From an uncultured Pseudomonadota bacterium (GTDB lineage: Bacteria; Pseudomonadota; Gammaproteobacteria; Methylococcales; Methylomonadaceae), in NCBI GenBank assembly GCA_903870545.1, contig CAIQDI010000006.1:124001-188000 (forward strand): DNA of 64,000 bases, in the 5' to 3' direction. Of the stretch, positions 15,473 through 49,088 are shown piece by piece. The translations under genes were made by a program, and so were the position numbers. The notes under the pieces were generated by a model. The model ran no database searches. It saw nothing but the letters and a program-made list of their open reading frames with translations, and was not told where the DNA came from. How positions within the stretch are numbered: the first letter of the stretch is position 1; the number at the start of each line of letters is the position of its first letter.

Positions 15473-15492
15473 AACGTTTACGATAGCCACGT

Positions 15493-16020
15493 TTATTTTT
15501 GACGTGCTTCAAATTTATCAATGCCCGCTAACGCACATTCTTCGTCAGTTTTTGCACCACCCACACCGATTGCGCCAATAATTTCATCTCCGTTTTTAAT
15601 TAACACGCCACCAGGGCGAGCATTAAAATTGGGATTGGCGGCAATTTTTGCAGCCAGTTCTTTATCTGTGCCAATTTTGGCAAACAATTCACTGGTTGCC
15701 GCTTTGAAATGCAATGCCGTGATGGCTTTATTGGTGCTGGATAAAACACCTCTTTCTGACGCGCCATCTGAGGCGAGCAACACTTTGAGTACGCCAGCAG
15801 AATCGACAACACTCACACCACTAGATTGTCCGCCTTTGTCCAAACAGGCTTCAATTGCAGCTTGGGCGGCTTCAATTGACGATTCTAATGTGGGACCATG
15901 TGCAGCAGGTTGAGGTGGTTTTTTTGCAGCATCATTTGCAGGCGGTGGTGCTGCGTATGTTAACGAAGCCGCGACAACAAGAAAAAGAGCAGCAATATAT
16001 TCAATCGTTTTGTTTATCAT
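15493..16020 (-). CDS. Secreted GlcG/HbpS family heme-binding protein
   Basis: After a signal peptide and a Pro/Ala-rich linker, the protein shows the GlcG/HbpS (DUF336) fold: an N-terminal helix, GVSVVDSAGVLKVLLASDGA, a middle segment on helix turnover, and NARPGGVLIKNGDEIIGAIGVGGAKTDEE. HbpS of Streptomyces binds heme and degrades it under redox stress; other members are of unknown role. The length (175) suits a single domain with an export signal. It sits between a haloperoxidase-like gene and dsbD, so a periplasmic heme or redox function is plausible but unproven. Confidence 0.87.
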   Translation of the reverse strand: MINKTIEYIAALFLVVAASLTYAAPPPANDAAKKPPQPAAHGPTLESSIEAAQAAIEACLDKGGQSSGVSVVDSAGVLKVLLASDGASERGVLSSTNKAITALHFKAATSELFAKIGTDKELAAKIAANPNFNARPGGVLIKNGDEIIGAIGVGGAKTDEECALAGIDKFEARQK

Positions 16021-17720: not shown

Positions 17721-20399
17721 TTAGAAAGTAGAACGTAAAACTAAGCCAACGTAACGACGCGCTCCAATGCCGTCATAACCGACCGCTCCCGTGTTACTAA
17801 AATTGTTAATGCTGGTTGTGTAATGGGTATCAAAAACGTTGGTCGTAATCAAATTGACTTCGTATTTATTTTTCTGACCTGTGAAGAGACCAATACCTAA
17901 ATCAGTCACTTGGTAAGCATCTTGTTTGCCCCACGATGATAATTGCGCCTCGAGATTTTGCGCGGAACGCACAACGGTGTTTGCCCACGCATGACCAGTC
18001 AAACCACCAAATCCCATAGGTTTATGCAAATCAACCCCAAAAATTCCTGTTAATTCAGGCGCACCGACAACTTGTTTGCCTGTGTTATCACAAACTTTTG
18101 CAATATCTGAGGTGATTTCTGTTGGGCAAGTCGCCGTATGCCAATCGGTATATGTCGCATGATTGAACGCGCCACCCGCATTAAAGGTTAAATAAGAGGT
18201 TGGATAATAGGCAGAATCGACTTCAAGACCCATTGCGGTGATTTCAGGAATGTTACCTAATTGAGAGCGATAACCTGTTGATGTAGTTGGATCAACAACA
18301 CTGGTGGTTGCTTGATAATCGGTGACGGTCGTGTGGTAAAGATTCACGTTTAACATGACTTTTTTATTTAAGAACAAACTTTTTGCGCCTAATTCAAAGT
18401 CGAGTGATTTTTCGGGTTTAACGTTAATCGTTGAGCCATCAGAACTGTTGAACTGAATGGAACCTGATTTTTGACCGCCAGCGGCTGAGGTATAAACCAT
18501 CAGATTATCATTGATTTTGTAGCTAGGATTTGCGAGCCATGACGTTGAAAATGCGTCAAGACTATCCGCTTCTTTGTAAGCGTAACTATTTTTTAATTGC
18601 CCGCTACGAATTGCATCAGCATTTTTATCACCGGTTGCTTTCAATTCTGAACCATCGTAATAATTTGCTGATTTTGCTGTTGCGGCGGTTTTGCTTTCAA
18701 ATGTTTCGCGCACGCCTAATGTCAACGTTGCTTTATCAGTGAGGTGGATATTTGCTTGATCGAAAAGAGCATAGCTGTCGGTTGCGGGCGAGGTCAATGT
18801 GGTTGAATAGACATTATTTAGCGATGACGTTAATAAACTGCGGCTCGCTGCCGTATTTAACGCCGCATATTGCTTGTTACTCGCATAAAATGCACCCGCA
18901 TCTTGTCCGTACAAAGTACGAGATAATGAATCCGTTTCGGTGTGCATAAAGAATGCTCCCGTTTGATTGTCTAACCATTTTGTTGGCGACCACGCATAAC
19001 GTAATTCTTCAGAATACTGCGACGTATCAACAAGCGTACCGCCTCTGTTGATGTCGAATTTTGTTTCATCACTGTCATTTTTTGCATCAAAATGTAATTG
19101 GCGATAAGCGGTAATGGACGTTAATGTTCCAGGGCCGACATCCCAATCTAATTTGCCTGAAATTCCTCCATTTTTAGTAATCAGCGGTTGCGCTTGCCCT
19201 AAATCATCTTGATTCCAGGATTGCGCCCCAATAATCGGTTTGTAACCACCAAAAGAATCGCGTTGCAGTCGTGAAGAAAAAGTGAGTCCGTCGTTTGCCG
19301 TTCTTGATACACCGTTTGCAAAATTTGCTGGATCATACATAGCAGGTTTTACGTTACTACTTTCCCGTCCTTCGGCATAATCGGTTGTCACTCTGAACTT
19401 TATGTTGTCTGTCGGTGTGAATAAAAATTGTAATTTTCCACCATAACGATTTCGTTCGTTAATTGTGCCGCCAACTGGATTGATATTATGAATATCACCA
19501 TCCTGTTTATTGATGAACATCGACCCACGAAAAGCGAGTAAATTATCCACAATGGCATTGCTGTAGGACGATTTGATTTTGAACGCACCAGGTAATATGC
19601 CAGTTTGTTGATTACCGCCAACTTCGCCTTCAATCGTGCCTTGCTGTGTAAAACTCGGAGCTTTGCTGACATAGTTAAGCACACCGATGGTGGTATTTTT
19701 CCCCATCAACGTACCTTGAGGGCCACGCAATACTTCCACACGATCTAAGTCCGTAAAATCTTGATAAGTCATGCCGACGTGACTCATGAAAACGTCATCA
19801 ATCATGACACCCACAGCCGCTTCCATGCTGTCGTTTCCGCTTGATTTACCAATGCCGCGCAACGAAACACCTGTTCGACGGGCGTTTGGCGTGGTTGCGG
19901 TTAAACCAGGAGCGCGTCTGGTTAAATCTTGAATATCTACGGTTCTATCACGCTCCATATTTTTTCCACCAATAACACTAATTGGAATAGGAACGTCTTG
20001 TAATTTTTCTTCACGACGACGCGAAGTCACCACGACTTCGGATAAGTTTTTTGCTTCTACTTCAGGAGCTTTGGTTTCAATGGCTGCCGCCACATTGTTG
20101 CTTTCTATTGGGATTGTTGTCGCGGCATCCGCTGGTGAATTTTCACTTACAGGCTTATTTTTCAGTTTCTTTTCAGCTTCGACTAATTTTTGTTTTAACT
20201 CAGCAACTTCAGCGGCGGGATCTTGATAAGCCTCTTCAGCAGCAACGCTATAACCCGAACCCAATAAGCAAGCTCCCACGACAATCAGCGCACTACTGCT
20301 TTTTTTACCTAAAATATGCAAGATCTCAGTGGAGAGTGACCGTGTATTTTTTACATTGTTTATTATCGACAACGGCTTTTTTATTCCATTGATACTCAT
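17721..20399 (-). CDS. TonB-dependent outer-membrane receptor
   Basis: The protein has an extended N-terminus with a signal peptide (near GYSVAAEEA), a short coiled coil (AEVAELKQKLVEAEKK), a TonB box (SEVVVTSRRREEKLQDVP), a plug at about 125-235 with IDDVFMSHVG and VEVLRGPQGTLMGKN, and a 22-strand-type barrel ending in a terminal Phe. It belongs with the large receptors that follow the RGIGKSS/RGPQGTLxGKNTTxGxxN pattern, many of them annotated for siderophores or complex organic ligands. The ligand is unknown. A sigma-54-like promoter lies 39-54 bases upstream of the start. The PAP2 gene is downstream in the same transcript. Confidence 0.93.
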   Translation of the reverse strand: MSINGIKKPLSIINNVKNTRSLSTEILHILGKKSSSALIVVGACLLGSGYSVAAEEAYQDPAAEVAELKQKLVEAEKKLKNKPVSENSPADAATTIPIESNNVAAAIETKAPEVEAKNLSEVVVTSRRREEKLQDVPIPISVIGGKNMERDRTVDIQDLTRRAPGLTATTPNARRTGVSLRGIGKSSGNDSMEAAVGVMIDDVFMSHVGMTYQDFTDLDRVEVLRGPQGTLMGKNTTIGVLNYVSKAPSFTQQGTIEGEVGGNQQTGILPGAFKIKSSYSNAIVDNLLAFRGSMFINKQDGDIHNINPVGGTINERNRYGGKLQFLFTPTDNIKFRVTTDYAEGRESSNVKPAMYDPANFANGVSRTANDGLTFSSRLQRDSFGGYKPIIGAQSWNQDDLGQAQPLITKNGGISGKLDWDVGPGTLTSITAYRQLHFDAKNDSDETKFDINRGGTLVDTSQYSEELRYAWSPTKWLDNQTGAFFMHTETDSLSRTLYGQDAGAFYASNKQYAALNTAASRSLLTSSLNNVYSTTLTSPATDSYALFDQANIHLTDKATLTLGVRETFESKTAATAKSANYYDGSELKATGDKNADAIRSGQLKNSYAYKEADSLDAFSTSWLANPSYKINDNLMVYTSAAGGQKSGSIQFNSSDGSTINVKPEKSLDFELGAKSLFLNKKVMLNVNLYHTTVTDYQATTSVVDPTTSTGYRSQLGNIPEITAMGLEVDSAYYPTSYLTFNAGGAFNHATYTDWHTATCPTEITSDIAKVCDNTGKQVVGAPELTGIFGVDLHKPMGFGGLTGHAWANTVVRSAQNLEAQLSSWGKQDAYQVTDLGIGLFTGQKNKYEVNLITTNVFDTHYTTSINNFSNTGAVGYDGIGARRYVGLVLRSTF

Positions 20400-20690: not shown

Positions 20691-21152
20691 TTATTCTCGA
20701 ATACGCGCTAAATCATGGCAACTTTTACACGCCGCTCCGACTTTTCCAAATTGATTTTTTATCTCTGCAACATCACCGGTTGCCGCTACTTTTTGTAATT
20801 CATTAGCTTCTTTGATGAACGTTGCATCAATTTCATTTACTTCAGCTTGTTTTTGAAAATACTCAGGCTTCAAATGAGAGGCTCTCCAGCCTGTGCCTTG
20901 GTCTGTCCCGACACCATATAATTCGTTTAAACCTGAATTTGCCACGGCGGCAATCGCATTCGCGGCGGCAATGACTTGTTCTTTGTTATAGGTTTCAGGA
21001 TGGTCAGCCACTTGCGCTTTAATTTTCCCCGTGTTCCAACCTAAAAATTCATACGCTGATTGACGAAATTTAATTTGTTTTTCAACGGTTTCAGAAAATG
21101 CTGTGGTTGCAACCGTAGCAAGTATGAAACTGAGTAAAAGTTTTGTTTTCAT
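20691..21152 (-). CDS. Secreted class II cytochrome c (cytochrome c' family)
   Basis: A 153-residue protein with a signal peptide (LATVATTAFSE) and a single heme site CKSCH close to the C-terminus, the layout of four-helix cytochromes c'. The conserved N-terminal IKFRQSAYEFLGWNTGKI is also typical. These bind CO or NO or carry electrons. I chose the ATG at 21152, with GAGG about nine bases upstream. The longer frame from 21194 would add an odd basic leader and run into the upstream gene. It follows the frameshifted cytochrome b gene, a usual partner. Confidence 0.9.
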   Translation of the reverse strand: MKTKLLLSFILATVATTAFSETVEKQIKFRQSAYEFLGWNTGKIKAQVADHPETYNKEQVIAAANAIAAVANSGLNELYGVGTDQGTGWRASHLKPEYFQKQAEVNEIDATFIKEANELQKVAATGDVAEIKNQFGKVGAACKSCHDLARIRE

Positions 21153-21186
21153 TATTTTTAACCTCGATGATTTAAAAAGTGTGTGA

Positions 21187-21838
21187 TTAACCAATATGCC
21201 AAACGCCCCAAACGATTAACGTTGCGGCAAGTAGCGTAAAAATAAAATGTGATGTTTTGACGGGAACGGTTGAAGAGAATGTGAAATTATCAGGCAGTTG
21301 TTTTTTGCCAGTCAGCATGGGTAAAACGAGATTTGTTTTTTTAACGACTTGATAAAAAAATAAGCGCGGCAAGATGCGAAACAACCAAGCCAAGCAACAC
21401 GTCAAAAGCCAAACTGTGCCAATTACTTAATTTGTCGCTCAGTTCTTTTGAAATAAGGTGAAACCATGCGCCTTCAAAAGCAATATCATCATTGGCGAAT
21501 AAACCTGTTATGACTAAAAACAAAAGTGTCATCAACAACGCAATCACCGCTAATGCACCGGCTGGATTATGTCCAACGCCTTGCCAATCGCCGTTGAAAT
21601 AAGCGGTCAATTTAGAAAAATTAGGCATGAAATTGATAAAACGGGCGTGCGTTGTGCCAACAAATCCCCAAATGAATCGAAACACCAATAACGCCAAAAT
21701 AAAACCGCCTAAACGGTCATGCCAATCGGTGAGATTACCGCCTAATTTTCCTGTGACATAAGCTCCAATCACAGCCAAAACAAGCAACCAATGAAACAAG
21801 CGCAAAGGTAAATCCCAAACAGTGATAGTTGTTTTCAT
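21187..21838 (-). pseudogene. Cytochrome b561-type membrane protein, frameshifted at an A7 tract
   Basis: The frame from 21838 encodes WDLPLRLFHWLLV, DWHDRLGGFILALLVFRFIWGF and SDKLSNWHSLAFDVLLG, with several membrane helices and paired His, as in Ni/Fe-hydrogenase-like b-type cytochromes. It stops early at 21341. The expected ending (FFYQVVKKTNLVLPMLTG and a final helix) continues in another frame down to 21187. The two frames join if one base is added to the A7 run at 21354-21360 on the plus strand. The gene is either truly broken, phase-variable, or carries an assembly error. It should pass electrons from quinol to the cytochrome c' next door. Confidence 0.85.
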
Positions 21839-21851: not shown

Positions 21852-22745
21852 TTAACCATCACGCAAATAAACATTAAAGAAACTAATCGTTCTATCCCAC
21901 GCCAATTTTGCTGTCGCGGCATCGTAACGTGGCGTGGTGTCATTATTGAAACCATGTTGCACCGCAGGATAAACGTGGGCTTCATAATTCACATTTGCCG
22001 CTTTTAAAGCCGTTTCATACGCAGACCAACCCGCATTGATACGCTCATCCGCGCCTGCATAATGCAACAATAACGGAGCTTTAATTTTTGCCGCTTCTTC
22101 GGCGGTAGGTTGATTCCCATAAAAGGCGACCGCCGCACCTAAATCTGGAATTTTTGTTGCCAGAAAATTCACAATACCACCACCGTAGCAAAACCCAACC
22201 GCTCCGACTTTGCCATTACTGTGCGGTAATTTTTTCAAAATGTGTGCGGCAGTTAAAAAATCGGCTTTGGTTTTATCTTGGTCTAAATTTTTGAATAGTT
22301 CGCGGGCTTTGTCTTCATCGTTCGGATAACCGCCAACAGGAAATAACGCATCCGGTGCAAACGCAATGAAATTATCCAATGCAATCCGTCGCGCAATGTC
22401 TTCGATGTGTGGATTCAAACCCCGATTTTCATGAATAACCAAAACGGTTGGCAATTTACCTTTGAATTGCGCGGGCTGAACTAAATAACCGCGAATTTTA
22501 CCGTTACCTTGCGGTGATGGATATTCAACATATTCCGCTTTAAGGCGCGGGTCATTTCCTAAAATTTGTTGTGCTTCGGCAAATTTTGGACTTAATGCTT
22601 CTAGCACGCCTTCTGCCGTTAAACCCAATAGCGCGTATTTAGCGATTGAGGATAAAAAATCCCGTCGTGAAATATCGCCATGAACGTATTTATCAAATAC
22701 TTTGAGTGTTTCGGGATGAAAATCATCTGTGGTTTTTCGTGTCAT
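21852..22745 (-). CDS. Tat-exported dienelactone hydrolase family protein
   Basis: The N-terminus carries a twin-arginine motif (SRRDFLSSIAKYA) followed by a hydrophobic stretch, so export in a folded state is likely. The alpha/beta hydrolase core shows the nucleophile Cys in GAVGFCYGGG, the Asp in YAGADERINAG and the His in VQHGFNND, the Cys-Asp-His triad of dienelactone hydrolase. The natural substrate is unknown; exported members are not tied to chlorocatechol degradation. It is 14 bases upstream of the cytochrome b gene. Its own promoter must lie in the 90 bases after the SMP-30 terminator or the transcript reads through. Confidence 0.88.
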   Translation of the reverse strand: MTRKTTDDFHPETLKVFDKYVHGDISRRDFLSSIAKYALLGLTAEGVLEALSPKFAEAQQILGNDPRLKAEYVEYPSPQGNGKIRGYLVQPAQFKGKLPTVLVIHENRGLNPHIEDIARRIALDNFIAFAPDALFPVGGYPNDEDKARELFKNLDQDKTKADFLTAAHILKKLPHSNGKVGAVGFCYGGGIVNFLATKIPDLGAAVAFYGNQPTAEEAAKIKAPLLLHYAGADERINAGWSAYETALKAANVNYEAHVYPAVQHGFNNDTTPRYDAATAKLAWDRTISFFNVYLRDG

Positions 22746-22834: not shown

Positions 22835-23803
22835 TTATTTGGCTCGACCCGCGTAGCCTGCTGTTTTAAGTGCCACTTTGTAAGCATCACCACGCCCGAC
22901 AACATAAAGTGTTTTTTTGTCTTTGCCTGCGAAGGCTAAATTTTGCGGTTTTTTAGGAATCGGAATTACACCGAGTTCTTTGCCAGCATCGTCAAACACC
23001 TCAACCCCCGCGCTAGATGCCACATAAAGCCGTCCTTTTTCGTCAACGGCTAATCCGTCTGCGCCACTAGACCAAATAGCATCTGTTTGACTCCAACCTT
23101 TCAGTTTTGCGAAGTCTTTTTTGTGACTGATTGAACCATCGTCAGCGATTTTGTAAGACAAAATATATTCGCCAGCGGTATTTGCCACAAATAACGTTTT
23201 TTCATCGATACTTAACTGCACGCCATTTGGACGTTCCAAATCACTCACAATACGTTTTAATTCCCCTTTTGGCGTAATGTAAAAAACGCCTGCCGTTGAA
23301 GGCGGTGGATTTGGATTTTCTGGAGTGGCGCGGGTGCCAATATCGGTGAAATAAATCCCGCCGTTTTTAGCCAATACTAAATCATTAAGGCGTTGAAACG
23401 GTGCGCCCTCAAAGTTTTCAGCCAAGACTTTTTCTTTGCCTTGCGGATAAATAATGCCGACTTTTGCGGGTGCCGCTTGTTGAACGGCGTACAAATCGCC
23501 ATTTTTCGCAAACGCTAACCCATTTGCACCGCCTGTATTTTCTAAAAAGGTAGAAGTGGTATTGTCGGGTGCAATGCGTGTAATCCGATTGACTTTGGTT
23601 TCAGTAAAAATGGCACTGCCATCCGGCAACGCGATTGGACCTTCTGTTCCTTCAAAACCGTCTTTAATAAATTCAACTTTTGTTCCCGCATCAACAACGC
23701 CCGCAATTTTTGGCGTGACCGCATCTTCTGCATGAACGGTGGAAAACATGCCTAACGCAATAGCGAAAGGAACCATTTTTTTCTGAAAAGCGTTTAATGA
23801 CAT
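22835..23803 (-). CDS. Secreted SMP-30/gluconolactonase-like beta-propeller protein
   Basis: A signal peptide (GMFSTVHAED) precedes a six-bladed propeller with repeated motifs such as GGANGLAFAKNGDLYAVQ, RLNDLVLAKNGGIYFTDIG, RPNGVQLSIDEKTLFVAN and ADGLAVDEKGRLYVASS. The metal-binding Glu, Asn and Asp of the SMP-30 family fall in EGPIALPDG, LNDLV and DGLAV. Family members hydrolyse lactones or phosphotriesters; the substrate here cannot be told. It begins 14 bases after exbD, so this exported enzyme is made with the TonB energy system. Confidence 0.9.
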   Translation of the reverse strand: MSLNAFQKKMVPFAIALGMFSTVHAEDAVTPKIAGVVDAGTKVEFIKDGFEGTEGPIALPDGSAIFTETKVNRITRIAPDNTTSTFLENTGGANGLAFAKNGDLYAVQQAAPAKVGIIYPQGKEKVLAENFEGAPFQRLNDLVLAKNGGIYFTDIGTRATPENPNPPPSTAGVFYITPKGELKRIVSDLERPNGVQLSIDEKTLFVANTAGEYILSYKIADDGSISHKKDFAKLKGWSQTDAIWSSGADGLAVDEKGRLYVASSAGVEVFDDAGKELGVIPIPKKPQNLAFAGKDKKTLYVVGRGDAYKVALKTAGYAGRAK

Positions 23804-23817: not shown

Positions 23818-24225
23818 TTAATTTGAAAGAGTTAAAACTGATAATTTGGTTACGCCCGCCCGTTCAATCGATGACATCACTTTTGCGACCGTTCCATATT
23901 GAACCCCATCATCCGCATTGAGATTTAATGCCAATTCAGGGTCGGCGGCTTTACGACTTTTTAATTCGCTTTCGATGGTCTCAATGGCAATTTCTTTTTT
24001 ATCGATAAAAATTTTACCTTGAGCATCCACGCTTAAATAAACCGCTTCTTTTTCTTCAGGTGGCGCAGTTTCTTCGGTTTTGGGTAAATTGACGTGAACG
24101 GCATTCGTCAATAATGGGGCGGTTACGATAAATACCACGAGCAACACCAACATTACGTCTACAAGTGGCGTAACGTTGATTTCGCCCATGATGTCATCGC
24201 CATCATCTTTGGTATTAAAAGCCAT
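23818..24225 (-). CDS. exbD: Biopolymer transport protein ExbD
   Basis: ExbD couples the proton gradient to TonB together with ExbB. The 135-residue protein has a short cytoplasmic N-terminus, one membrane helix containing the essential Asp in EINVTPLVDVMLVLLVVF, and a small periplasmic domain with the usual KRAADPELALNLNAD-type segment. Its start codon shares a base with the stop codon of exbB (TAATG), so it is translationally coupled. Confidence 0.95.
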   Translation of the reverse strand: MAFNTKDDGDDIMGEINVTPLVDVMLVLLVVFIVTAPLLTNAVHVNLPKTEETAPPEEKEAVYLSVDAQGKIFIDKKEIAIETIESELKSRKAADPELALNLNADDGVQYGTVAKVMSSIERAGVTKLSVLTLSN

Positions 24226-24977
24226 TAGGCGTGCGCCTCTGCCGCGAGTAATTCTTCGTCAGAATTAAATTTCTGTTTTTTAACAATGTTAAGTGCAGTG
24301 ATGCTTGCTTGTTTGCCTTGACGTTCGATGAGGAAAGAACTTTTCAATGCTAAATGAATAAAATCAATGGCGAAATCATCTAAGAAAGCCCAGACCACTT
24401 TGTTGCGACGAATAAAGAAGTTGTAGCCAACCACCGCTGGGACGGAGACGGCGATACCAACGGCTGTTGCAATCAAGGCTTCACCAATCGGTCCCGCGAC
24501 AACATCTAAACTTGCTGAACCGCTTTTGCTGATGCTGGTTAATGCGCCCATAATTCCCCAAACTGTGCCGAACAAGCCTACAAACGGTGAAATACTGCCG
24601 ACCGTTGCAAGAATCGCTAATCCACTTTCTAATGCTCCTTTTTCTTTTTGCATTTGTTGACGCAAACGGCGTTCTAAAAGTTCTTGGCGGTCGCCGGTAT
24701 GTTCCAAATCGTGAGTCGTTGTTCCGCCGTCCGCTTCAATCAACGTGGTAAATCCAACACCGGCAACACGCGCCGCTGGTCCATTTGTTTCTTCAAGACA
24801 TGAAGCTGCTAAGATATTTGAGGCTCCCCAAAATTGTTGACCAAAAACACGATTGTGATGGGAAATGCGTATGTGTTGGATGCCTTTGATTAAAATCAAA
24901 GCCCATGTCACAACAGATGCGCCGATTAAAATGGAAAGTGTGCCATTAACGATGGCACTGGTTGCAATGTCAGACAT
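24225..24977 (-). CDS. exbB: Biopolymer transport protein ExbB
   Basis: ExbB is the MotA/TolQ/ExbB-type proton channel scaffold with three membrane helices. Typical segments are SGLAILATVGSISPFVGLFG, WGIMGALTSI and AVGIAVSVPAVVGYNFF. I chose the ATG at 24977 (250 residues), which has GAGG upstream and removes an implausible 28-residue leader that would overlap tonB. It begins 11 bases after tonB and overlaps exbD by one base. Confidence 0.95.
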   Translation of the reverse strand: MSDIATSAIVNGTLSILIGASVVTWALILIKGIQHIRISHHNRVFGQQFWGASNILAASCLEETNGPAARVAGVGFTTLIEADGGTTTHDLEHTGDRQELLERRLRQQMQKEKGALESGLAILATVGSISPFVGLFGTVWGIMGALTSISKSGSASLDVVAGPIGEALIATAVGIAVSVPAVVGYNFFIRRNKVVWAFLDDFAIDFIHLALKSSFLIERQGKQASITALNIVKKQKFNSDEELLAAEAHA

Positions 24978-24987: not shown

Positions 24988-25839
24988 TCAAGATAAATTA
25001 AAAGTAATTGGAACTGTGACCCAACCTGCGACTGGCGTATCGCCACGCATCGCAGGGACAAAAGACCATTTGTGAACTGTTTTCACTGCTGCATCATCTA
25101 AAACTTTTTGACCGCTACTTTTACTGACTGTAATCGTGTCTGGTTTGCCGTCAGGTTGAACGTGAACTTTCATCAGCACTTTGCCTTCCCAGCCGTTATC
25201 CATCGCAATATCAGGATATTCAGGTTCGGGATTATTTAAGTAATCCGCGCCTGCTGTTGGCGCAGTTACTTTTTCAGAAACAACAGGAGCTGGCGGCGGT
25301 GCAGCTGGAGCAGCGGGTGCAGGTGTTGTTGAAACAGGCACTGTCGATTGGATAACAGGTGTCGGTTCAAATGTCGGAATGGGTTCCGCTACTCGTTCAA
25401 CCGATTTAGTCGCTTGGGGTTTTAAAGGCACCGCGTTATGGGCAACAGGTTTAGGTGCAGCCGCTTTGGGCGGTGGTGCTTTTTTAGGTATTGTCGGTTG
25501 TTTAACTTGCGCGACAGGAGGTGGCGGCGGTGGGGGAATAACAATGGGTTTAGGCTTTGGTTTTGTAAATGAAATTTCAACTTTAGAAGGTTGTTTCGCA
25601 GGCGTAATAATTTTTTGTTCCAATGATGAACTGTCAAAATGACTAACCACCGTCGTGTGTACAAAAATGGAAAGTACACCTAATAACAAATAATCGGCAA
25701 GTTTGTGGTCACGATTTTCGTTGTCGTATTTAAAACTTCTTATTGTGGCAGCAACAGACGCGGAACTACTCGGTTTGATTTCTGCTGTTGATTTAAACTG
25801 CCAGTCAGTTCTATTCAATGTTACTGATGGACTGCTCAT
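24988..25839 (-). CDS. tonB: Energy transducer TonB
   Basis: TonB spans the periplasm and energises outer-membrane receptors. The protein has a 45-residue cytoplasmic N-terminus, one membrane helix (YLLLGVLSIFVHTTVVSHF), a long Pro/Lys/Ala-rich spacer, and a C-terminal TonB domain with YPDIAMDNGWEGKVLMKVHV and the closing WVTVPITFNL. It is the first gene of the tonB-exbB-exbD-SMP-30 transcript. A sigma-54-like promoter lies 61-76 bases upstream. The nearby TonB receptor is the likely client. Confidence 0.95.
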   Translation of the reverse strand: MSSPSVTLNRTDWQFKSTAEIKPSSSASVAATIRSFKYDNENRDHKLADYLLLGVLSIFVHTTVVSHFDSSSLEQKIITPAKQPSKVEISFTKPKPKPIVIPPPPPPPVAQVKQPTIPKKAPPPKAAAPKPVAHNAVPLKPQATKSVERVAEPIPTFEPTPVIQSTVPVSTTPAPAAPAAPPPAPVVSEKVTAPTAGADYLNNPEPEYPDIAMDNGWEGKVLMKVHVQPDGKPDTITVSKSSGQKVLDDAAVKTVHKWSFVPAMRGDTPVAGWVTVPITFNLS

Positions 25840-25899: not shown

Positions 25900-25915
25900 T
25901 GCACCCAACATGCCA
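25900..25915 (-). promoter_or_regulatory. Sigma-54-type promoter of the tonB operon
   Basis: Minus-strand TGGCATGTTGGGTGCA matches the -24 TGGCAYR element fully and the -12 element as GTGCA, with GG and GC ten bases apart. It lies about 60 bases before the tonB start. Confidence 0.7.
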
Positions 25916-26280
25916 TGATTGAATAAAAGTATTGAAATATCAGAAGTAGAACTTTTTTAGTTTATAACCGATTGATTAAAATAATTATTTTTATTTTATA
26001 TTTGAGATTGTTCGATTGAATAAAGCGGCAAAGTGCATCATTTAAAAATTGGAAGATGTTTATGTAACATCAACTTTCAAAAAATTTGTTTATTAAGTGT
26101 TTAATTATCAACACTTCTATTTTTAGATAACAATAACGACCTGTTCTGATTTCCATAAAAACCTTAATGAACCAAATTAAAAAATGCTAGCATAGCAGCC
26201 ATCGTGAAACCGATAATTATGCCCGCGTGTTTTGAATCGCGTTAAAATTGCTGTTGATTAAGAAGCAATACTCCGACAGT

Positions 26281-32690: not shown

Positions 32691-32693
32691 TGA

Positions 32694-40750: not shown

Positions 40751-41809
40751 CTAGCTGTTAATTAAACCCTGATTTTTGTTGTTTAACATTCCATACGTTG
40801 CCAGTTTATGCCTCAGTACATTGCGGCTAATATCCAATAATTTTGCGGTTTGAACCTGATTTTTATCGCAGAAATCAAAGGCTGAACGAATAATGCTTTC
40901 TTCTATTATTTGATAAAGTTTAGGCGGTGTTTGCTCGAACAAATTAAGCAATGTATTTTCCAGTGAATTAGTTGATACCGTCGGTGTATTTTGAGAAACT
41001 CTTGCCCCCGATAATTTAAAATCTTCTGGTCGTAAATAATTATTTGGGCAAATCAATAACGCACGATGCACCGCGTTTTCTAATTCTCGAATGTTTCCTG
41101 GCCAGTCATAATTCAGTAAAGTTGTTTCTGCTGCTGGCGATAATTTTACTTCGCTATATCCCAATCTTTCGGAATAAATTTTTAAGAAATGTTGTGTCAG
41201 TGGCAAAATGTCGCGCGGTCTATCGCGTAATGGGGAAAGTTCAATTTTAGCCACATTAAAACGGTAATATAAATCAGCGCGAAAATGGGATGCCGCAACG
41301 GCTTCTTCAAGATTTACATTGGTAGCGGCAATAATTCTCACATCGATGGGTACAGGTTTCCTTGAACCCACTCTGACCACTTCCCTTTCTTGTAAAACGC
41401 GCAATAATTTTACTTGCAAAGCCATTGGTAAATCGCCGACTTCGTCAAGAAAAAGACTGCCTTTATGGGCTGTTTCAAACCAACCGAGTTTGTCCGTTAA
41501 CGCGCCGGTAAATGCGCCCTTTTCATGTCCAAACAATTCACTTTCGATTAAATTTTCGTTGAGCGCGGCGCAATTTAACGCACCAAAAGTATTGTTGCTA
41601 CGTTTGCTTAGTTCATGAATGTGTCGGGCAACCAGTTCTTTACCCGTTCCGGTTTCACCGACAATCAGCACAGTTGCGTCACTGGGCGCAATTCGTTCAA
41701 TTTGCTTCAGTAACCGTTGTGAAACAGGGTCTTCAAATACTAATGCGGTGGCTCGAACGGAAAGCACCAGTGAACGAGATTTCTGTTCATTAAACGCTAA
41801 TAAAGTCAT
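40751..41809 (-). CDS. Sigma-54-dependent activator without N-terminal sensor domain
   Basis: The 352-residue protein consists of the AAA+ domain (about 22-265) and a C-terminal Fis-type helix-turn-helix. Walker A is GETGTGKE, the sigma-54-contacting loop is EKGAFTGALTDK, Walker B is GSLFLDEVGDLP, and the arginine finger region is DLYYRFNVAKIELSPLRDRP. The helix-turn-helix is QVQTAKLLDISRNVLRHKL. Only about 20 residues precede the AAA+ core, so there is no receiver or ligand domain, as in PspF. Activity may then be set by a partner protein or by expression level. It is convergent with the efflux channel gene and is the only sigma-54 activator in the window. Confidence 0.93.
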   Translation of the reverse strand: MTLLAFNEQKSRSLVLSVRATALVFEDPVSQRLLKQIERIAPSDATVLIVGETGTGKELVARHIHELSKRSNNTFGALNCAALNENLIESELFGHEKGAFTGALTDKLGWFETAHKGSLFLDEVGDLPMALQVKLLRVLQEREVVRVGSRKPVPIDVRIIAATNVNLEEAVAASHFRADLYYRFNVAKIELSPLRDRPRDILPLTQHFLKIYSERLGYSEVKLSPAAETTLLNYDWPGNIRELENAVHRALLICPNNYLRPEDFKLSGARVSQNTPTVSTNSLENTLLNLFEQTPPKLYQIIEESIIRSAFDFCDKNQVQTAKLLDISRNVLRHKLATYGMLNNKNQGLINS

Positions 41810-42023: not shown

Positions 42024-43049
42024 TTATTTGGTTTCAGCGGCATTATTTGCCGTGATAATCTGGTCAAAAATACCGTTATCGGCAAAATGTTTTTTCTGGG
42101 CGTTTGTCCAACCGCCCAATGCGTTAATGTTTGTTAATTCAATTTTAGGAAATTGTTTCGCATATTTCGCCGCTATTTCTGGATCTGTTGGACGATAAAA
42201 ATTCTTAGCAATAATTTCTTGCCCTTCTTTTGAATAAAGATGTTTTAAATACTCCGTAGCCACTTCTGTTGTGCCATGTTTTTTTACCACTGAATCCACA
42301 ACAGCAACAGGTGGTTCCGCTAAAATACTAAAAGAAGGCGCGACAATTTGGTATTTATCCGCGCCAAATTCACCCAAAACTAAAAACGCTTCGTTTTCCC
42401 AAGTGATTAACACATCGCCAATTTCACGTTCAGCAAACGTTGTCGTGGAGCCGCGTGCGCCCGTGTCCAATACTGCCGTATTTTTGTACAACTGTGAAAT
42501 GAACGTTTTTGCCGCTGCTTCATCATTGTTACTGTGTTTTAACGCATACGCCCAACCCGCCAAATAATTCCAACGTGCGCCGCCTGAGGTTTTAGGGTTT
42601 GGCGTAATCACGCTGATGTTTGGTTTCACTAAATCATTCCAATCTTTAATGTTTTTTGGATTGCCCTTTCGAACTAAAAACACAATCGTTGACGTGTAAG
42701 GCGAACTGTTATTTGGCAAAATTGATTGCCAATTTTCGGGAATCAATTGGCGTTGCAAGTGTAATTGGTCAATATCAGAAGCCAGTGCAAGAGTGACAAC
42801 ATCCGCTTCCATGCCATCCAAAACGGCGCGGGTTTGTTTACCACTACCGCCATGAGATTGATCGACCTGAACGTTATCACCGGTTTTTGCTTTCCAGTAT
42901 TTAGCAAAAGCATTGTTGTAATCTTTATACAATTCACGAGTTGGATCGTAAGACACATTGAGCAATTTCACATCTGCCGCGTTGACATTATGTACAGCGG
43001 CAATCGTCAATGCAGCGGTAAAAAGAAGATGTTTAAAATGGTTATTCAT
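42024..43049 (-). CDS. sbp: Periplasmic sulfate-binding protein (Sbp/CysP family)
   Basis: A 341-residue extracytoplasmic solute-binding protein with a signal peptide ([11 protein letters not shown]). The family signatures [47 protein letters not shown] and ITWENEAFL surround the sulfate pocket. It would deliver sulfate to a CysTWA transporter, but none is encoded nearby, so this is an orphan subunit. A strong terminator follows. It is placed between the sigma-54 activator and the cytochrome cluster. Confidence 0.94.
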
Positions 43050-43099: not shown

Positions 43100-43642
43100 T
43101 TATTTTGATTTATGAATCGGATACCAAAATTGTAAATGGCAATTCTCGCAGGCTTGGTCAACCAGCCCACCCGTCCGGATAAGTTCTTCGGTGTCTTTTT
43201 TATCAATCGCATTGACCACCAGTTGCATTGCATCATGCAAGCCTAACGCTCTTTGATTAAATTCGGATTTATGCGTTTTGATTAGCTTTTGAATTTCTGC
43301 TGCTTGTAATTCAGTGCTGCCAATCGATGACGTATTGGCACCGTCTTCAGCCACTTTGCGCCCATCAATGACTAATAAATTACTCACTTCCAAAACCGTC
43401 AAAGCGTGTTTTTTCACTTCTGCCCATTCTTCATCTGTATGCGGACTTTTTTCTTCAACGCCACTTTTAGTGGAAATCGTGGCAACCGAATTCCAAACGA
43501 AATCGATGTTGGGATCAACAATCGACGACATAATTTGTTGTATCGTTGCCGTTGGTTTAAAAGATGTTGCGTCTTTTGCTTGTGAAGCGAAAGACAACAT
43601 AAAGCCAGCGATGGCAAGGGTAATAACGGCTGATTTTTTCAA
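43100..43642 (-). CDS. Secreted class II cytochrome c
   Basis: The protein has a signal peptide ([18 protein letters not shown]) and one heme motif CENCH near the C-terminus ([13 protein letters not shown]). Its predicted helices fit cytochrome c'-like four-helix proteins. I chose the TTG at 43642 (about 180 residues) because AAGGAG lies six bases upstream and the leader then starts LKKSAVIT. The longer frame to 43693 would overlap the upstream gene and add a basic, non-signal leader. It is the last gene of the eight-gene minus-strand cluster. Confidence 0.85.
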
Positions 43643-43652
43643 CGTAAACTCC

Positions 43653-44129
43653 TTAAACAAAACCAATAAATCGCGCGGAAAACGCCACCGCAAGCCATAA
43701 AAACATAACCAATCCCGCCGTAAATCTTGCCGCTAACAAATGCGGTGATTCGATGGAGGTTAGTTTTTTATACAGCGTGACGTGGACAATTAGCGCAATC
43801 GCTAAAAACAGGAACTTTGCCCAGAATGCAAAATTAGGATAGTAATTTGTCGCGGCGGGTATAAAAATAAAAATTCCCGAAAAAACTAATAACCCTAAAC
43901 CGACCCAAATAAATTTCGCCGTAGATTGGGCAATATCGACTAAGGATTGTTCGCGCAAACCACTCAAACCGGCTAAACGCAAACTGACTAACGTCACGGG
44001 CGATAAAATCAGAATCAACCCGACAATGTGAATAAGCTGAAAAATTGCACCGAATAAATGATTTTGACCGCCGACAAATCGGCTTAATTCGCTCGTTTGA
44101 ATATCTTTAAATAATTCAAGCACTGACAT
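43653..44129 (-). CDS. Four-helix membrane protein, DUF6644-like
   Basis: A 158-residue integral membrane protein with about four helices: IFQLIHIVGLILILSPVTLV, FIWVGLGLLVFSGIFIFI, FAFWAKFLFLAIALIVHV and FTAGLVMFLWLAVAFSARF. The HxxG in the first helix and its paralogy with the next gene suggest the same family; from memory such pairs are labelled DUF6644. The function is unknown; conserved His could bind heme but this is unproven. ATG at 44129 has AGGAG seven bases upstream; the longer frame overlaps its neighbour. Confidence 0.75.
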   Translation of the reverse strand: MSVLELFKDIQTSELSRFVGGQNHLFGAIFQLIHIVGLILILSPVTLVSLRLAGLSGLREQSLVDIAQSTAKFIWVGLGLLVFSGIFIFIPAATNYYPNFAFWAKFLFLAIALIVHVTLYKKLTSIESPHLLAARFTAGLVMFLWLAVAFSARFIGFV

Positions 44130-44143
44130 AAAAACGCTCCTGT

Positions 44144-44641
44144 TTATTTGTAATTCAAATAGGGAATCAATCGCCCAGAAATCAGCACTAAACTCCATAA
44201 GAATAGTGAGATTCCGCCGGCATACTGAACACTTTTGGGTAATAATTTTTCAAATTCCCAATGATCAACGTGTTTTCCCCATTTCAACTCAAACCAAAGC
44301 GCATTAACGCCTGCTAACACTATAAATATCAGTTTGTAGAAGAACACATCGAGCAAAATAATTTTAGATGCTGAAGCCACAAACAGTAAAATTCCTGTCA
44401 CCATCGTCACGGCAAAACTGCCTAATATCAACGGTCTCAACGGATGCAATAATGCCGAAACTGAAATGTTCGGTAAAAACAAACCCAATAATCGTAAATC
44501 AACAAAAAACAGCAATCCGACTGAAAACGCTAATCCAATTAAATGAATACCTTCTACAATCGGATAGGCGTAAATGGATTCCCGAAGCGATGTACCTAAT
44601 TCTGAATCGTAAAGTAATTCAGCAAATTCGATTAACGTCAT
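44144..44641 (-). CDS. Four-helix membrane protein, DUF6644-like
   Basis: A 165-residue membrane protein related in layout to the downstream one. The N-terminus (LRESIYAYPIVEGIHLIGLAFSVG) has a conserved His in the first helix, followed by SFAVTMVTGILLFVAS, VFFYKLIFIVLAGVNALWF and SLFLWSLVLISGRLI. Together the pair may form a membrane anchor or quinol-facing module for the periplasmic cytochromes of the cluster. That is inference from context. AAGGAAAAGAG precedes the ATG. Confidence 0.75.
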   Translation of the reverse strand: MTLIEFAELLYDSELGTSLRESIYAYPIVEGIHLIGLAFSVGLLFFVDLRLLGLFLPNISVSALLHPLRPLILGSFAVTMVTGILLFVASASKIILLDVFFYKLIFIVLAGVNALWFELKWGKHVDHWEFEKLLPKSVQYAGGISLFLWSLVLISGRLIPYLNYK

Positions 44642-44669
44642 CTCTTTTCCTTAAACATTTTGTAATTGA

Positions 44670-45665
44670 TTAAACTGCGCCTAAACCGAAACCACCGTTA
44701 TTTTCGGTGCAAATTCTTTCTTCATGTTCGATAGTGGTTTTGCCTGCTGCGTCTTTGGCGAACCACACATCAAAATTCCAACCGTCTGGCTTATCGGCAA
44801 TTGTCCATTTTCTTGCTGGAATCGTGACCGTAAAGGGTTTGGTATAAACCGTTGGGTCAGTAAAAACGGCTTCGTAGTTGTAGCGCGTGTTTTCTTTGTT
44901 GAAAATGTAATGCTCTTCAATGTGACCATTTTCACTAATGAATTCGCCCGAACGTCCGAAAAGGGCTTTGCCGTTGTGATTGTTTACATCGACAACCAAC
45001 GTATTTCCTTCCCAATGACCGCGCGAATCGCCGTTCCAAAGTTTGATTTTGCTAGGCAAATGCGCTTTATCATCCAAATGAATAATGCGCGTACCCGAAT
45101 CAAAAAAGAACACCACATAATTCGGATATTGCTTGATTTCATAACCGTGCCAATACAGCGATTTTGGCACGCCACCTGGCGCACATCGCGCTAACGGCTC
45201 AACAAAATTTGGCGTGGTCGGGTCGTGAAATTTAACCTGAAATTCTTTTACCTTTTCCAAAGCCCAAGGTTGAAAAGGCACTTGTCCATCGACGGAATCA
45301 CTGACACGACTAGGAGCGCGATCTGCCCGCGCACCTTTTGGAATGCGGTTTGGATTGGGGTCGTTGATAATGCCGCCTTGTGGGTCGGTAAAATTCCCAT
45401 GATTGCCAATCGTATTCGACCAAAAACCCGAAACGTCAGGTTGACCATCTGCCAGTCTTTCGCCTGTCCATTTCTCAGATGAAATTTTTGGAAAACTTTT
45501 CTCGCGTGGCAAACCACCACCGCCATTAGCTTGTGCGGCAGGTTTTTTTTGTTCGGTTTGTTGTTTATCGGTATCAGCCGCTTGTCCAATTTGCGGAATA
45601 AATGCCATTCCGACAAGTAGCAATCCCGATACGCCAACATAATGTTTCAACACATTTTTTTTCAT
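44670..45665 (-). CDS. Secreted protein of unknown function with GDSRGHWEG motif (paralogue 1)
   Basis: A 331-residue exported protein: signal peptide (GMAFIPQIGQAAD), a Gln/Lys/Gly-rich linker, then PDVSGFWSN and the strongly conserved WNGDSRGHWEGNTLVVDVNN. Near the C-terminus lies a possible disulfide or metal residue in EERICTENNGG. I know no established function for this family, which is common in soil bacteria. I chose the ATG at 45665 because it gives a proper signal peptide and leaves a 20-base gap to the upstream paralogue. Confidence 0.75.
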   Translation of the reverse strand: MKKNVLKHYVGVSGLLLVGMAFIPQIGQAADTDKQQTEQKKPAAQANGGGGLPREKSFPKISSEKWTGERLADGQPDVSGFWSNTIGNHGNFTDPQGGIINDPNPNRIPKGARADRAPSRVSDSVDGQVPFQPWALEKVKEFQVKFHDPTTPNFVEPLARCAPGGVPKSLYWHGYEIKQYPNYVVFFFDSGTRIIHLDDKAHLPSKIKLWNGDSRGHWEGNTLVVDVNNHNGKALFGRSGEFISENGHIEEHYIFNKENTRYNYEAVFTDPTVYTKPFTVTIPARKWTIADKPDGWNFDVWFAKDAAGKTTIEHEERICTENNGGFGLGAV

Positions 45666-45685
45666 AACATTCTCACTTAATGGCG

Positions 45686-46456
45686 TTACTGTTTTGGTGG
45701 ATAAAATTCGTCGTAATCCAAGGTAAAACGATAATCTTCGATTAACTGAAAATCTTTTTCCCGATGTCGATACAAAATGACATCGATATTCCACGGACGA
45801 CTGTACACTTTGGGATCTTCGATAGTGGCTTTATATTCGATAGTATTGGCATCCAGAAACGCCCATTTTTCAACAACATGAAGTGCATCGCTGTGAAAAT
45901 TCCCCGCTTTGTCCAACCATGTTTTGTCGTTAAAATGCTTTGCGTCAACAACCAGCGTATCACCTTCCCAATGTCCTCTGGAATCACCCAACCACCAATC
46001 ATTAGCATCTTCAGGATGCGGCGTGCCATTGGTGTAAATGGTGCGAACCGAATGACCCAATTGATGCACCAACGTCAAATCTTGTTTACGCTGAAAAATT
46101 TGAAAGGGTTCTGGATAATAAACACTTCGCGGCACACCCAGCGTGTAGCCTTTTAAAGCAGGATCTAATGTTGCGCTGGTTTCAAAATTCTTTTGTTTTT
46201 TTGCAAAGGCTTCGGGCAGATAAGGAATCGAACCGCCTTCGACAATTCCCGCGCTAGGTGGCGTATTTTTACGATTTGAATGCGGTTCGAGGTCATAATC
46301 CGCCGCGCTGGTGGTTTGCCAAATTCCCGAAAAATCAGGTTTTCCACCTAGACGCGGAATTTTTTTATCGGTAGCAACGGCTGAAAAAGAAAATGCTAAC
46401 AGCAAACCCAATGACACCGCTGATTTAGAGGATTTTGTTATCAATAGTGTATTCAA
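45686..46456 (-). CDS. Secreted protein of unknown function with GDSRGHWEG motif (paralogue 2)
   Basis: A 256-residue paralogue of the next gene, sharing KPDFSGIWQT, YPEPFQIFQR and WWLGDSRGHWEGDTLVVDAKHF. The signal peptide ends near SAVATDKK. The start is TTG at 46456, supported by AAGGAG six bases upstream; there is no better ATG. The two paralogues in tandem suggest a two-part periplasmic complex or enzymes for related substrates. No function can be assigned. Confidence 0.75.
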   Translation of the reverse strand: MNTLLITKSSKSAVSLGLLLAFSFSAVATDKKIPRLGGKPDFSGIWQTTSAADYDLEPHSNRKNTPPSAGIVEGGSIPYLPEAFAKKQKNFETSATLDPALKGYTLGVPRSVYYPEPFQIFQRKQDLTLVHQLGHSVRTIYTNGTPHPEDANDWWLGDSRGHWEGDTLVVDAKHFNDKTWLDKAGNFHSDALHVVEKWAFLDANTIEYKATIEDPKVYSRPWNIDVILYRHREKDFQLIEDYRFTLDYDEFYPPKQ

Positions 46457-46498
46457 AAAAGTCTCCTTAAAGTTCAGTTAAGCAAAGCCACAAATTTA

Positions 46499-46957
46499 TT
46501 ACGGTGCGGCGGATGCGGTTGAAGTCGCTGGCTCAACTGAAGCCGCCGGTTTGGGTGTTTCGGGTGCATCTTGTGCGCCGCCTGTTTTGACACTGCTACC
46601 ATCAGGCAATGTCGTTGTGACGGCGTAACCAAAATTTTGTCCATTCTTCGCTTTGAATCCGTTAATGGTAATTTCTGTACCAGGTGTTAAGGTTTTTTTG
46701 GTAATGCCTTTTTCTTTCAAATTAAACGGTGCGCCGAATTCAAATCCCCAATTTGCAACGGTGCCATCGGCTTGTTTAACATCCAAATAAAGCCAACTGT
46801 GCGGATTAACCAATTCAAATTTAGTGACCACGCCTTTCACTTCAACGGGTTTTTCTGCATCAAACTCGGCAGAAAATGCGTGATGAGCATTCGCAGGAAT
46901 CGCCATCGCACAACCTATAATGGCTAAAATTGGGAGTAACTTATTTCTCGTTTTCAT
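46499..46957 (-). CDS. Secreted DUF6152-like protein
   Basis: A 152-residue exported protein with a signal peptide ending in NAHHAFSAEFD, followed by KPVEVKGVVTKFELVNPHSWLYLDV, the signature of the family I recall as DUF6152. A Pro/Ala/Ser/Thr-rich tail ends the protein. The HH after cleavage and NPHSW could be metal ligands. In other genomes such proteins often accompany the GDSRGHWEG proteins, as here. The function is unknown. Confidence 0.75.
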   Translation of the reverse strand: MKTRNKLLPILAIIGCAMAIPANAHHAFSAEFDAEKPVEVKGVVTKFELVNPHSWLYLDVKQADGTVANWGFEFGAPFNLKEKGITKKTLTPGTEITINGFKAKNGQNFGYAVTTTLPDGSSVKTGGAQDAPETPKPAASVEPATSTASAAP

Positions 46958-46967
46958 AAAATTCTCA

Positions 46968-47393
46968 TTATTTTGTTGAAGCAGATTTGTTTAAATAGAC
47001 GGCGTGACACGCTTCGCAAGCCGCATAAAGTGCATCACCTGCTTCAATGGCTTTTTCAGTGTCTTTAATTTCAGTGGCTTTTGCGACAGATTTTGCGGCG
47101 ATCATCATTTGTTCTGTGGCTTGCTTCCAAATGGGTTGATTTTCAAAAGGCGTTTTTAAAAGCCATTTCCCGGATTCAACTAATGCCAAAGCGTTTGCTT
47201 TGACTTTGCGCCATTCTTCATTATTTTTGGGTGTTTCGTTCGCTACCGCAAAAACCGTGTTTGAAGCGGGTACGGTCACTTCTTGCATCTGTGTTTTAAC
47301 TTCTGCGTTTGTTTCAGTTGGACTAGCTGCGATGCCAACTTTCATGATTGAAAAAAACAAAACGGCGACACCCAACGTTTTTCCTACTTGCAT
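46968..47393 (-). CDS. Secreted class II cytochrome c
   Basis: A 141-residue protein with a signal peptide (VAVLFFSIMKVGIAAS) and one heme motif CEACH near the C-terminus (AACEACHAVYL). NNEEWRKVKANALALVESG resembles the [19 protein letters not shown] of the cytochrome at 43100, so the two are homologues within one operon. The ATG at 47393, with AGAGG nine bases upstream, is preferred to a TTG nine bases earlier. Confidence 0.87.
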   Translation of the reverse strand: MQVGKTLGVAVLFFSIMKVGIAASPTETNAEVKTQMQEVTVPASNTVFAVANETPKNNEEWRKVKANALALVESGKWLLKTPFENQPIWKQATEQMMIAAKSVAKATEIKDTEKAIEAGDALYAACEACHAVYLNKSASTK

Positions 47394-47457
47394 TAGACAC
47401 AACCTCTAACCCATAAAATCGATAGCACGACGTTAAAAATCGCGCTATTTAAAATTT

Positions 47458-47925
47458 TTAATGTGCGCCTTCGGCTTCTGGTTTGGGTGGTGGCACAGCG
47501 ATTTTTGTTAAGGTACCGCCCTCAGCTTCATAGTCTTGTGCGCCAACTGCCCCCGCGACTTTAAAGCCTTTTGATGCTAATAAATCCGCGCCTTTTCCAC
47601 CACGTCCGGCGTGATTTGATACCGTGATGACAGAACGGTCTTTCGGAATAAAGGCTAAACTTTTTTCAAGTTCATTGATTTGAATGTTGAGATAAACGGG
47701 GAACCCCCCGATTTTGCTGATTTCATCAGGACGACGTAAATCAATAACCGTTAATTTTTCAGGTTTTGCTAACAACGCATCGACTTGGGCGCGGCTCAAT
47801 TTGGGGGCTTTCGCTGTGTAAGGATGTGCTTCTGCGGCAGCAGGTTTTGGTGCTTCTTCAACAGCAAATACCGCTGAACTGGTAAGAACCATTGCTAAAA
47901 CTGCCAAACTGGTAAATTTCTTCAT
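47458..47925 (-). CDS. Secreted rhodanese-like protein lacking the catalytic cysteine
   Basis: After a signal peptide (TSSAVFAVEEAP), a single rhodanese fold shows LSRAQVDALLAKPEKLTVIDLRRPDEISKIGGF and the loop ITVSNHAGRGGKGADLL. In active rhodaneses the loop begins with Cys; here Ser or Asn stands there and the mature protein has no cysteine. It cannot be a normal sulfurtransferase and may bind a ligand or partner. It is the first gene of the cytochrome cluster, 114 bases downstream of a sigma-54-like promoter. ATG at 47925 fits the signal peptide; a longer frame to 47997 does not. Confidence 0.85.
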   Translation of the reverse strand: MKKFTSLAVLAMVLTSSAVFAVEEAPKPAAAEAHPYTAKAPKLSRAQVDALLAKPEKLTVIDLRRPDEISKIGGFPVYLNIQINELEKSLAFIPKDRSVITVSNHAGRGGKGADLLASKGFKVAGAVGAQDYEAEGGTLTKIAVPPPKPEAEGAH

Positions 47926-48269
47926 ATTTTGAATCTCAATCGTTAAAAAACTAGGATGCACGGTTTTGAAGTGCGTTAAAATTTTTTGCATTAACATGAA
48001 TGAGTTACGTTAATTCATGTTCCTTACGAATAGAGAATTGCACGGTTTGTGCCAATAAAATTAGAGAATTGCCAACAGAAAAATTATTTTTATAATTATT
48101 TGATAAATAAAGAATTTAATTTTTATTTCTGTGAAAAATTTCTTTTTGTGAGCGTTTTTTAAGAGAATTTTCTTTAGAACGAGGAATTAGCTGTTGCTAA
48201 AGCAACAACTCATAATCAGGTGTTGACCGTGTGCTAGCATCGGTTTGAGGAATTGTTTAGAGGGCAAAT
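47926..48269. other. Intergenic region upstream of the cytochrome cluster
   Basis: No gene is seen. It holds the sigma-54-like promoter at 48039-48054 and an AT-rich stretch. A small inverted repeat (GTTGCT AA AGCAAC, about 48193-48206) lies about 150 bases upstream of the promoter. The right edge borders the decayed antitoxin gene. Confidence 0.55.
48039..48054 (-). promoter_or_regulatory. Sigma-54-type promoter of the rhodanese/cytochrome cluster
   Basis: Minus-strand TGGCACAAACCGTGCA has a full TGGCAC at -24 and GTGCA at -12, with GG and GC ten bases apart. It is the best match of the four in this window. It lies 114-129 bases before the rhodanese-like gene. Confidence 0.75.
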
Positions 48270-49013: not shown

Positions 49014-49081
49014 TAGTTGAAATCTCCAGTTTGTGAAATTGCCGCTTGGGCTAATGGTTCGGAAGTGGTGACTGAAATCAT
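48986..49081 (-). repeat. Leader repeat, copy B (full, contains the hicB start)
   Basis: A 96-base unit. On the minus strand it encodes a 22-residue peptide (MISVTTSEPLAQAAISQTGD...) whose TAA overlaps the ATG of hicB (TAATG). It is nearly identical to copy C. Confidence 0.9.
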
Positions 49082-49088
49082 AAGCACC

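Follow-up and report, generated by a model that had tools for sequence, protein, structure and literature searches.

In a 64,000-nucleotide stretch of DNA from an uncultured bacterium of the Methylomonadaceae (assembly GCA_903870545.1, contig CAIQDI010000006.1; hereafter the window), eight adjacent minus-strand genes encode a rhodanese-like protein (rhod), two putative class-II cytochromes c (cyt1 and cyt2), a DUF6152 protein, two secreted proteins of the GDSRGHWEG family (gds1 and gds2) and two DUF6644-type membrane proteins (mem1 and mem2). We judge it probable, at roughly 60%, that this cluster is the core of a cell-envelope system, controlled by sulfate starvation and powered by TonB, that acquires sulfur from an organosulfur compound, probably a lipophilic or bulky one. 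The first-pass annotation of the window had left the set with no assigned substrate; the regulator, the sulfate-binding protein gene sbp, the SorA and CysB neighbours of homologous loci and the promoter-like sites narrow this to a probable role in obtaining sulfur when sulfate is scarce.

The unit, its regulator and its promoter-like site

Analysis of open reading frames (ORFs) and families in the window confirmed eight co-directional, tightly packed genes (43100-47925), and the family matches bear out the gene content first proposed for them. The set had also been called complete, which proved incorrect: the unit continues past position 43100 on the same strand into sbp, after a gap of 50 nt, and then into a sigma-54 activator gene, and in homologous clusters a TonB-dependent receptor is a frequent addition, further parts a less frequent one. 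Such clusters were collected by scanning one genome per species, across 84,980 species, for Gds2; this returned 58 loci, and the 44 with clear similarity were studied.

The activator is a protein of 352 residues with PF00158 at residues 24-190, an AAA lid and, near its C-terminus, an HTH_8 fragment below cut-off; it carries no sensor domain. It is 57% identical to the activator of the Pseudomonas aeruginosa msuEDC locus (msuE-ssuD-acyl-CoA-dehydrogenase), and its best matches in a plasmid collection lay at msuEDC of P. aeruginosa and, in Azospirillum, Sphingobium and Burkholderia, at sfnG/msuE and ssu loci. A tree placed 19 activators, from this system and from sulfur loci, in one group apart from NorR and PspF (support 98/99), with the order inside the group unresolved. 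Earlier work grouped msu with sfnR (PMC8234197), and both SfnR1 and MsuCDE increase in sulfur-starved P. aeruginosa (PMC12581299).

Orthologues of the activator also lie beside sulfur genes elsewhere in the host genus. In two members without the operon (G003 and G008) the orthologue adjoins ssuA-ssuD-ssuC-ssuB, and in G003 cysT-cysW as well; in a third (G014) it adjoins a sulfate transporter ATPase gene and a LysR gene. One operon carrier, G004, has a second activator copy next to cysT-cysW-cysA and a LysR gene. SfnR-type activators were found in 10 of the 44 homologous loci. They are rare, at zero to two per genome in 41 relatives (E 1e-100), so ten in 44 short stretches was judged, informally, far above chance expectation. 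The sulfur-type identity predicted for the regulator is well supported. Two orthologues contain an in-frame TAA stop (G004:C88:425-1468 and G003:C10:47414-48463), possibly through decay or an assembly error; the second copy of G004 has no such stop.

A sigma-54 -24/-12 promoter-like site, TTGGCACAAACCGTGCA, precedes the operon, as the first-pass annotation had noted. Its significance by itself was rejected, as about 1.2 sites of that score are expected per shuffled window. The site is kept 113 bp before rhod in two loci of sister genomes (L102 and L104). Homologous loci as a whole are enriched in such sites: 39 of their 114 system units have one upstream, vs 5 of the 99 remaining units (Fisher p 5.6e-8, an optimistic value, since the units belong to related species and are non-independent).

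Conservation and sulfur-gene neighbours

The 44 loci come from Methylobacter, Methylomonas, Methylobacillus, Methylotenera, Cellvibrio, Saccharophagus, Azoarcus, other Rhodocyclales, Novosphingobium, Croceibacterium, Porphyrobacter and Steroidobacteraceae. The block DUF6152-gds1-gds2 occurs in 43 of them, the DUF6644 pair in 31, the cytochrome family in 26 and the rhodanese in 14, and a TonB-dependent receptor was present in 30 of the 37 loci whose contigs are 12 kb or longer. Rarer parts are a dienelactone hydrolase (DLH) family protein (9 loci), SMP-30, DsbD, redoxin and cytochrome c' (7 each), an HbpS-like protein (6), TonB (5) and cytochrome b561 (4). Joint inheritance of the set in other genomes, a check proposed along with the first description, is thereby borne out, and conservation of the predicted gene set is well supported. 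Among sister loci, L016/L102 keep the order from the rhodanese through sbp and the activator, L017 holds rhodanese to gds2, and L177 and L178 hold mem2-cyt2-sbp-activator. A search of the plasmid collection with gds2 gave only weak Novosphingobium matches. The idea that the DUF6152-DUF6644 combination is specific to this gene set was rejected, as a shorter pair stands alone in many Proteobacteria; examples without GDS genes are L092-L101, and the copy in L097 has sbp about 4.5 kb away.

Families that adjoin the cluster elsewhere sit at 12662-25839 of the window, 15-30 kb away from the operon, and we take the operon to be one half of a larger system on this basis. In Methylobacillus loci most of these added parts lie side by side. 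The DLH of the second half was found in three of four operon carriers of the host genus and in none of its 14 other genomes. A Croceibacterium locus joins two parts of the system in one open frame, where a rhodanese-like stretch shares the frame with an SMP-30/gluconolactonase domain (L135:4417-6249).

Sulfur genes recur beside the homologous loci. In a Dechloromonas locus (L123) sbp occurs together with cysT and cysW; sbp is also found in L131, and an Azoarcus locus (L134) has a fragment of the alkanesulfonate-monooxygenase type (SsuD-like). A gene for SorA sulfite dehydrogenase lies next to five sphingomonad loci (NF052245, 665 bits against a cut-off of 600, tested on L135), and the same five carry a CysB-family regulator (387 bits, just below the cut-off of 402); with a related regulator in L138, this family is represented in six loci. 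SorA is periplasmic and passes electrons to cytochrome c; it adjoins these five copies and none of the clusters seen here in methanotrophs, methylotrophs or betaproteobacteria.

The SorA neighbours, two c-type cytochromes and a rhodanese fold would also suit a periplasmic electron-transfer or oxidation chain for inorganic sulfur (sulfite or thiosulfate) that serves energy or detoxification and not assimilation. We consider this very unlikely, since a starvation-type activator and sbp point to assimilation, small ions need no TonB receptor, the rhodanese lacks its catalytic Cys and SorA is absent from the gamma- and betaproteobacterial clusters. An electron-transfer or oxidation role, as the first-pass annotation read it, is a candidate property of the set.

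Predicted products and proposed route

By inspection, every soluble product has a hydrophobic N-terminus and an AxA-type cleavage site, in line with the signal peptides first ascribed to all of them. In Rhod the motif VSNHAGR, conserved in four aligned homologues, occupies the active-site loop in place of the catalytic Cys of rhodanese sulfurtransferases, and the whole protein is free of Cys, as first described. Cyt1 and Cyt2 match PF01322 (Cytochrom_C_2) below cut-off (E 0.0027 and 0.0005) and have one C-terminal CxxCH each. Mem1 and Mem2 are homologous, and only Mem2 clears the Pfam cut-off; the DUF6644 alignment has five invariant columns (His33, Gly83, Lys103, Trp149 and Arg157 in Mem1). 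Profile searches of solved structures with the GDS, DUF6152 and DUF6644 alignments gave no convincing relative.

The GDSRGHWEG genes are paralogues, as had been proposed, with 34% identity across about 190 residues. The model of Gds1 is a calycin-like barrel (AlphaFold2 predicted local distance difference test, pLDDT, 86; VIA-align Z 9.6 and root-mean-square deviation 3.1 over 121 residues to CRBP1). Its structural matches are CRBP/FABP-like, with a best Foldseek E of 1.4e-3. Calycin folds often bind lipophilic ligands, although the fold alone gives no function. Such a barrel, together with the hydrolases, TonB receptors and resistance-nodulation-division (RND) pumps that adjoin the cluster, could also be part of a catabolic system for a lipophilic or aromatic carbon source, with the GDS, DUF6152 and DUF6644 proteins as binding and redox partners and the sulfur genes as incidental neighbours. 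It would agree with this that the homologues in Acidobacteria and Steroidobacteraceae showed no sulfur markers and that these proteins also occur in sphingomonads, but the set is carried by specialised one-carbon users (methanotrophs, Methylotenera and Methylobacillus), in which no carbon gain would be expected, and the SfnR-type activator and sigma-54 sites recur. We regard a carbon-source role as unlikely.

DUF6152 models as an oligonucleotide/oligosaccharide-binding (OB) fold (pLDDT 79; Z 9.5 to PriB). In an alignment of 44 sequences its Ala-His-His, NPH and Glu73 are invariant, and the invariant Ala falls where signal cleavage is predicted, which would leave a mature protein that starts with His-His. 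Ala-His-His, NPH and Glu are a candidate N-terminal-His metal site. Copper proteins with an N-terminal His, such as CopC and lytic polysaccharide monooxygenase, resemble it in this predicted start; unlike them, DUF6152 is modelled as an OB fold, and metal binding is only a candidate property.

These features also fit the acquisition or handling of copper, iron or heme, in which DUF6152 would be a copper protein that supplies methane monooxygenase or the maturation of cytochromes, alongside the TonB receptor, the HbpS-like protein and the c- and b-type cytochromes. The host genome contains pmoA and is thus that of a methanotroph, the HbpS-like protein is present, and the receptor scores best among NCBIfam siderophore and heme models, far below their cut-offs. 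Against this, the regulator and the neighbouring sbp, SorA, CysB and alkanesulfonate genes all belong to sulfur metabolism, many carriers are non-methanotrophs, and gds1 and the operon occur in only 4 of 18 genomes of the host genus (G000, G004, G007 and G009), although pmoA is present in nearly all of its members that were tested. A metal role appears quite unlikely to us.

For the sulfur-acquisition system, the following route would accommodate its parts. At low sulfate, the SfnR-type activator and sigma-54 RNA polymerase would switch on several units, as kinship of the regulator and the promoter sites suggest. A TonB-dependent receptor would carry the compound over the outer membrane; Gds1 and Gds2, as putative calycin-like barrels, may bind and present it, and the hydrolases (SMP-30-like and DLH) and the DUF6152 protein may process it. 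Class-II cytochromes, the DUF6644 pair, cytochrome b561 and DsbD/redoxin could shuttle electrons to or from the inner membrane. Sulfite or sulfate would be freed in the periplasm, the sulfite being oxidised by SorA where this is present, and Sbp would capture the product for import by the sulfate ATP-binding cassette (ABC) transporter. The regulatory part (sulfate starvation, an SfnR-type activator and sigma-54) is the best-supported part of this predicted mechanism; from receptor to Sbp capture, the path is inferred from anatomy. A more specific and unlikely version is an undescribed periplasmic desulfurisation, in which the compound would be imported through a TonB receptor and held by the secreted GDS proteins, while DUF6152, as an N-terminal-His (copper) redox protein linked through the class-II cytochromes and the DUF6644 proteins (as membrane haem or quinone carriers), would break the sulfur bond outside the cytoplasm.

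Several observations weigh against sulfur acquisition. No component has demonstrated activity in breaking C-S or S-O bonds, the conserved set contains no sulfatase or oxygenase, and regulation by sulfate starvation is a prediction from sequence. At least one recognised sulfur marker was found in only 18 of the 44 loci, a raw count within the stretch seen, with several contigs short. SorA was not found beside the gamma- and betaproteobacterial loci seen, and the host's own genome gave only a marginal match. Distant gds homologues in Acidobacteria showed no sulfur markers in these searches, which suggests that the protein families are wider than a sulfur role. Genome G004 (94% complete) has the operon with no DLH detected, and G020 has the second half without gds. 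To the non-independence of the units compared for promoter sites must be added the many system units that have no recognisable site.

Like the Pseudomonas SfnR/sigma-54 loci (msuEDC, sfnG/sfnFG and ssu), the system has a sensor-less SfnR-type activator, sigma-54-like sites and sulfate-transport gene neighbours. Those loci encode cytoplasmic monooxygenases dependent on flavin mononucleotide (FMN) and ABC importers, whereas the products described here are secreted or membrane-bound, among them cytochromes, TonB receptors and proteins with predicted calycin-like and OB folds. No FMN-dependent monooxygenase of the SsuD, MsuD or SfnG type was found in the window locus, and an SsuD query that matches G003 and G008 had no match in the host genome at E 0.001. 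The ssuD carriers (G003 and G008) and the operon carriers of the genus are disjoint, which is not significant with 18 genomes. The sft, ats and asf loci of Pseudomonas putida S-313, for the use of sulfate esters and arylsulfonates, are reportedly sulfur-controlled and at least one is said to be linked to an outer-membrane receptor; unlike them, the conserved set here has no recognised sulfatase or asf-type oxidoreductase. An alkylsulfatase was rejected as a member of the set, as the metallo-beta-lactamase-fold protein of Cellvibrio loci matches only PF00753.

In the literature searched, which left most subscription journals outside its coverage, we found no operon of this content, including in searches on sulfur starvation with TonB, SMP-30 and rhodanese, in agreement with the first-pass view that no such pathway had been described. 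The same searches gave no paper on DUF6152 or DUF6644 and no discussion of the GDSRGHWEG family, and the Collimonas and P. aeruginosa papers that they returned are not about this operon. The set is placed with SfnR/CysB-controlled sulfur scavenging and not as a new category, because its catalytic step is hypothetical. The routes known for organosulfur scavenging in bacteria are mostly cytoplasmic and depend on flavins. If the proposed reading is true, a cell-envelope system that is conserved, contains cytochromes and answers to this type of regulator would add a second organosulfur route, would give DUF6152, DUF6644 and the GDSRGHWEG family a first testable role and would bear on the sulfur supply of methanotrophs and methylotrophs where sulfate is scarce.

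Features of the window

Table 1. Coordinates of the operon, the second half of the system and promoter-like sites in the window.
Feature	Position	Strand	Basis
Sigma-54 -24/-12 promoter-like site TTGGCACAAACCGTGCA	48039..48055	-	score 27.5 of 30
rhod, periplasmic rhodanese-like protein, no Cys anywhere	47458..47925	-	PF00581 E 0.003
cyt1, putative class-II (c'-like) cytochrome, CxxCH at 126	46968..47393	-	PF01322 weak
DUF6152 protein, predicted OB fold	46499..46957	-	PF19649 E 1.5e-29
gds1, GDSRGHWEG-family secreted protein, TTG start, predicted calycin-like barrel	45686..46456	-	no Pfam match
gds2, gds1 paralogue, Cys161 and Cys319	44670..45665	-	no Pfam match
mem1, DUF6644-like small membrane protein	44144..44641	-	PF20349 E 2e-5, 25.2 bits, below cut-off 27
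mem2, DUF6644 small membrane protein	43653..44129	-	PF20349 E 4e-7, 30.9 bits, above cut-off 27
cyt2, putative class-II cytochrome c, cyt1 homologue, CxxCH at 165, TTG start	43100..43642	-	PF01322 weak
sbp, sulfate ABC transporter substrate-binding protein	42024..43049	-	NCBIfam PRK10752 506 bits, cut-off 288
SfnR-type sigma-54 enhancer-binding activator without N-terminal sensor domain	40751..41809	-	PF00158, kinship
Sigma-54 promoter-like site before tonB	25900..25916	-	score 26, weak alone
TonB energy transducer	24988..25839	-	PF03544
ExbB, start inferred at internal ATG	24225..24977	-	PF01618
ExbD-like protein	23818..24225	-	family f11 common to homologous loci
SMP-30/gluconolactonase-like secreted protein	22835..23803	-	PF08450 E 3e-36
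DLH family protein, Tat-like signal	21852..22745	-	PF01738 E 7e-49
Cytochrome b561, 165 aa	21341..21838	-	PF01292
Cytochrome c'	20691..21194	-	PF01322 E 4e-28
TonB-dependent outer-membrane receptor	17721..20399	-	PF00593 and PF07715
HbpS/GlcG-like secreted protein	15493..16020	-	PF03928
DsbD-like thiol:disulfide electron carrier	13364..15490	-	PF11412, PF02683, PF13899
Periplasmic redoxin	12662..13285	-	PF08534

The window's cytochrome b561 may be truncated or frame-shifted, its relatives having 216-250 residues (216 in sister genome G007). A gene placed between those for the TonB receptor and the HbpS-like protein encodes a 530-residue secreted protein resembling PAP2/vanadium haloperoxidases (16097-17689, weak PF01569), which was not noticed in other loci. 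Genes for an RND pump, a membrane-fusion protein and an outer-membrane factor lie between the two halves of the system (26470-40740), and genes of these three kinds are repeatedly found next to the cluster in other lineages (L105, L107, L108, L110, L123, L131 and L145). A pyruvate-formate-lyase-like enzyme, a radical SAM activase and a formate/nitrite channel are encoded at 30994-34946 in this methanotroph. Directly upstream of the operon (48553-50968) lie a HicA/HicB-like and two RelE-like toxin-antitoxin modules and one acetyltransferase gene.

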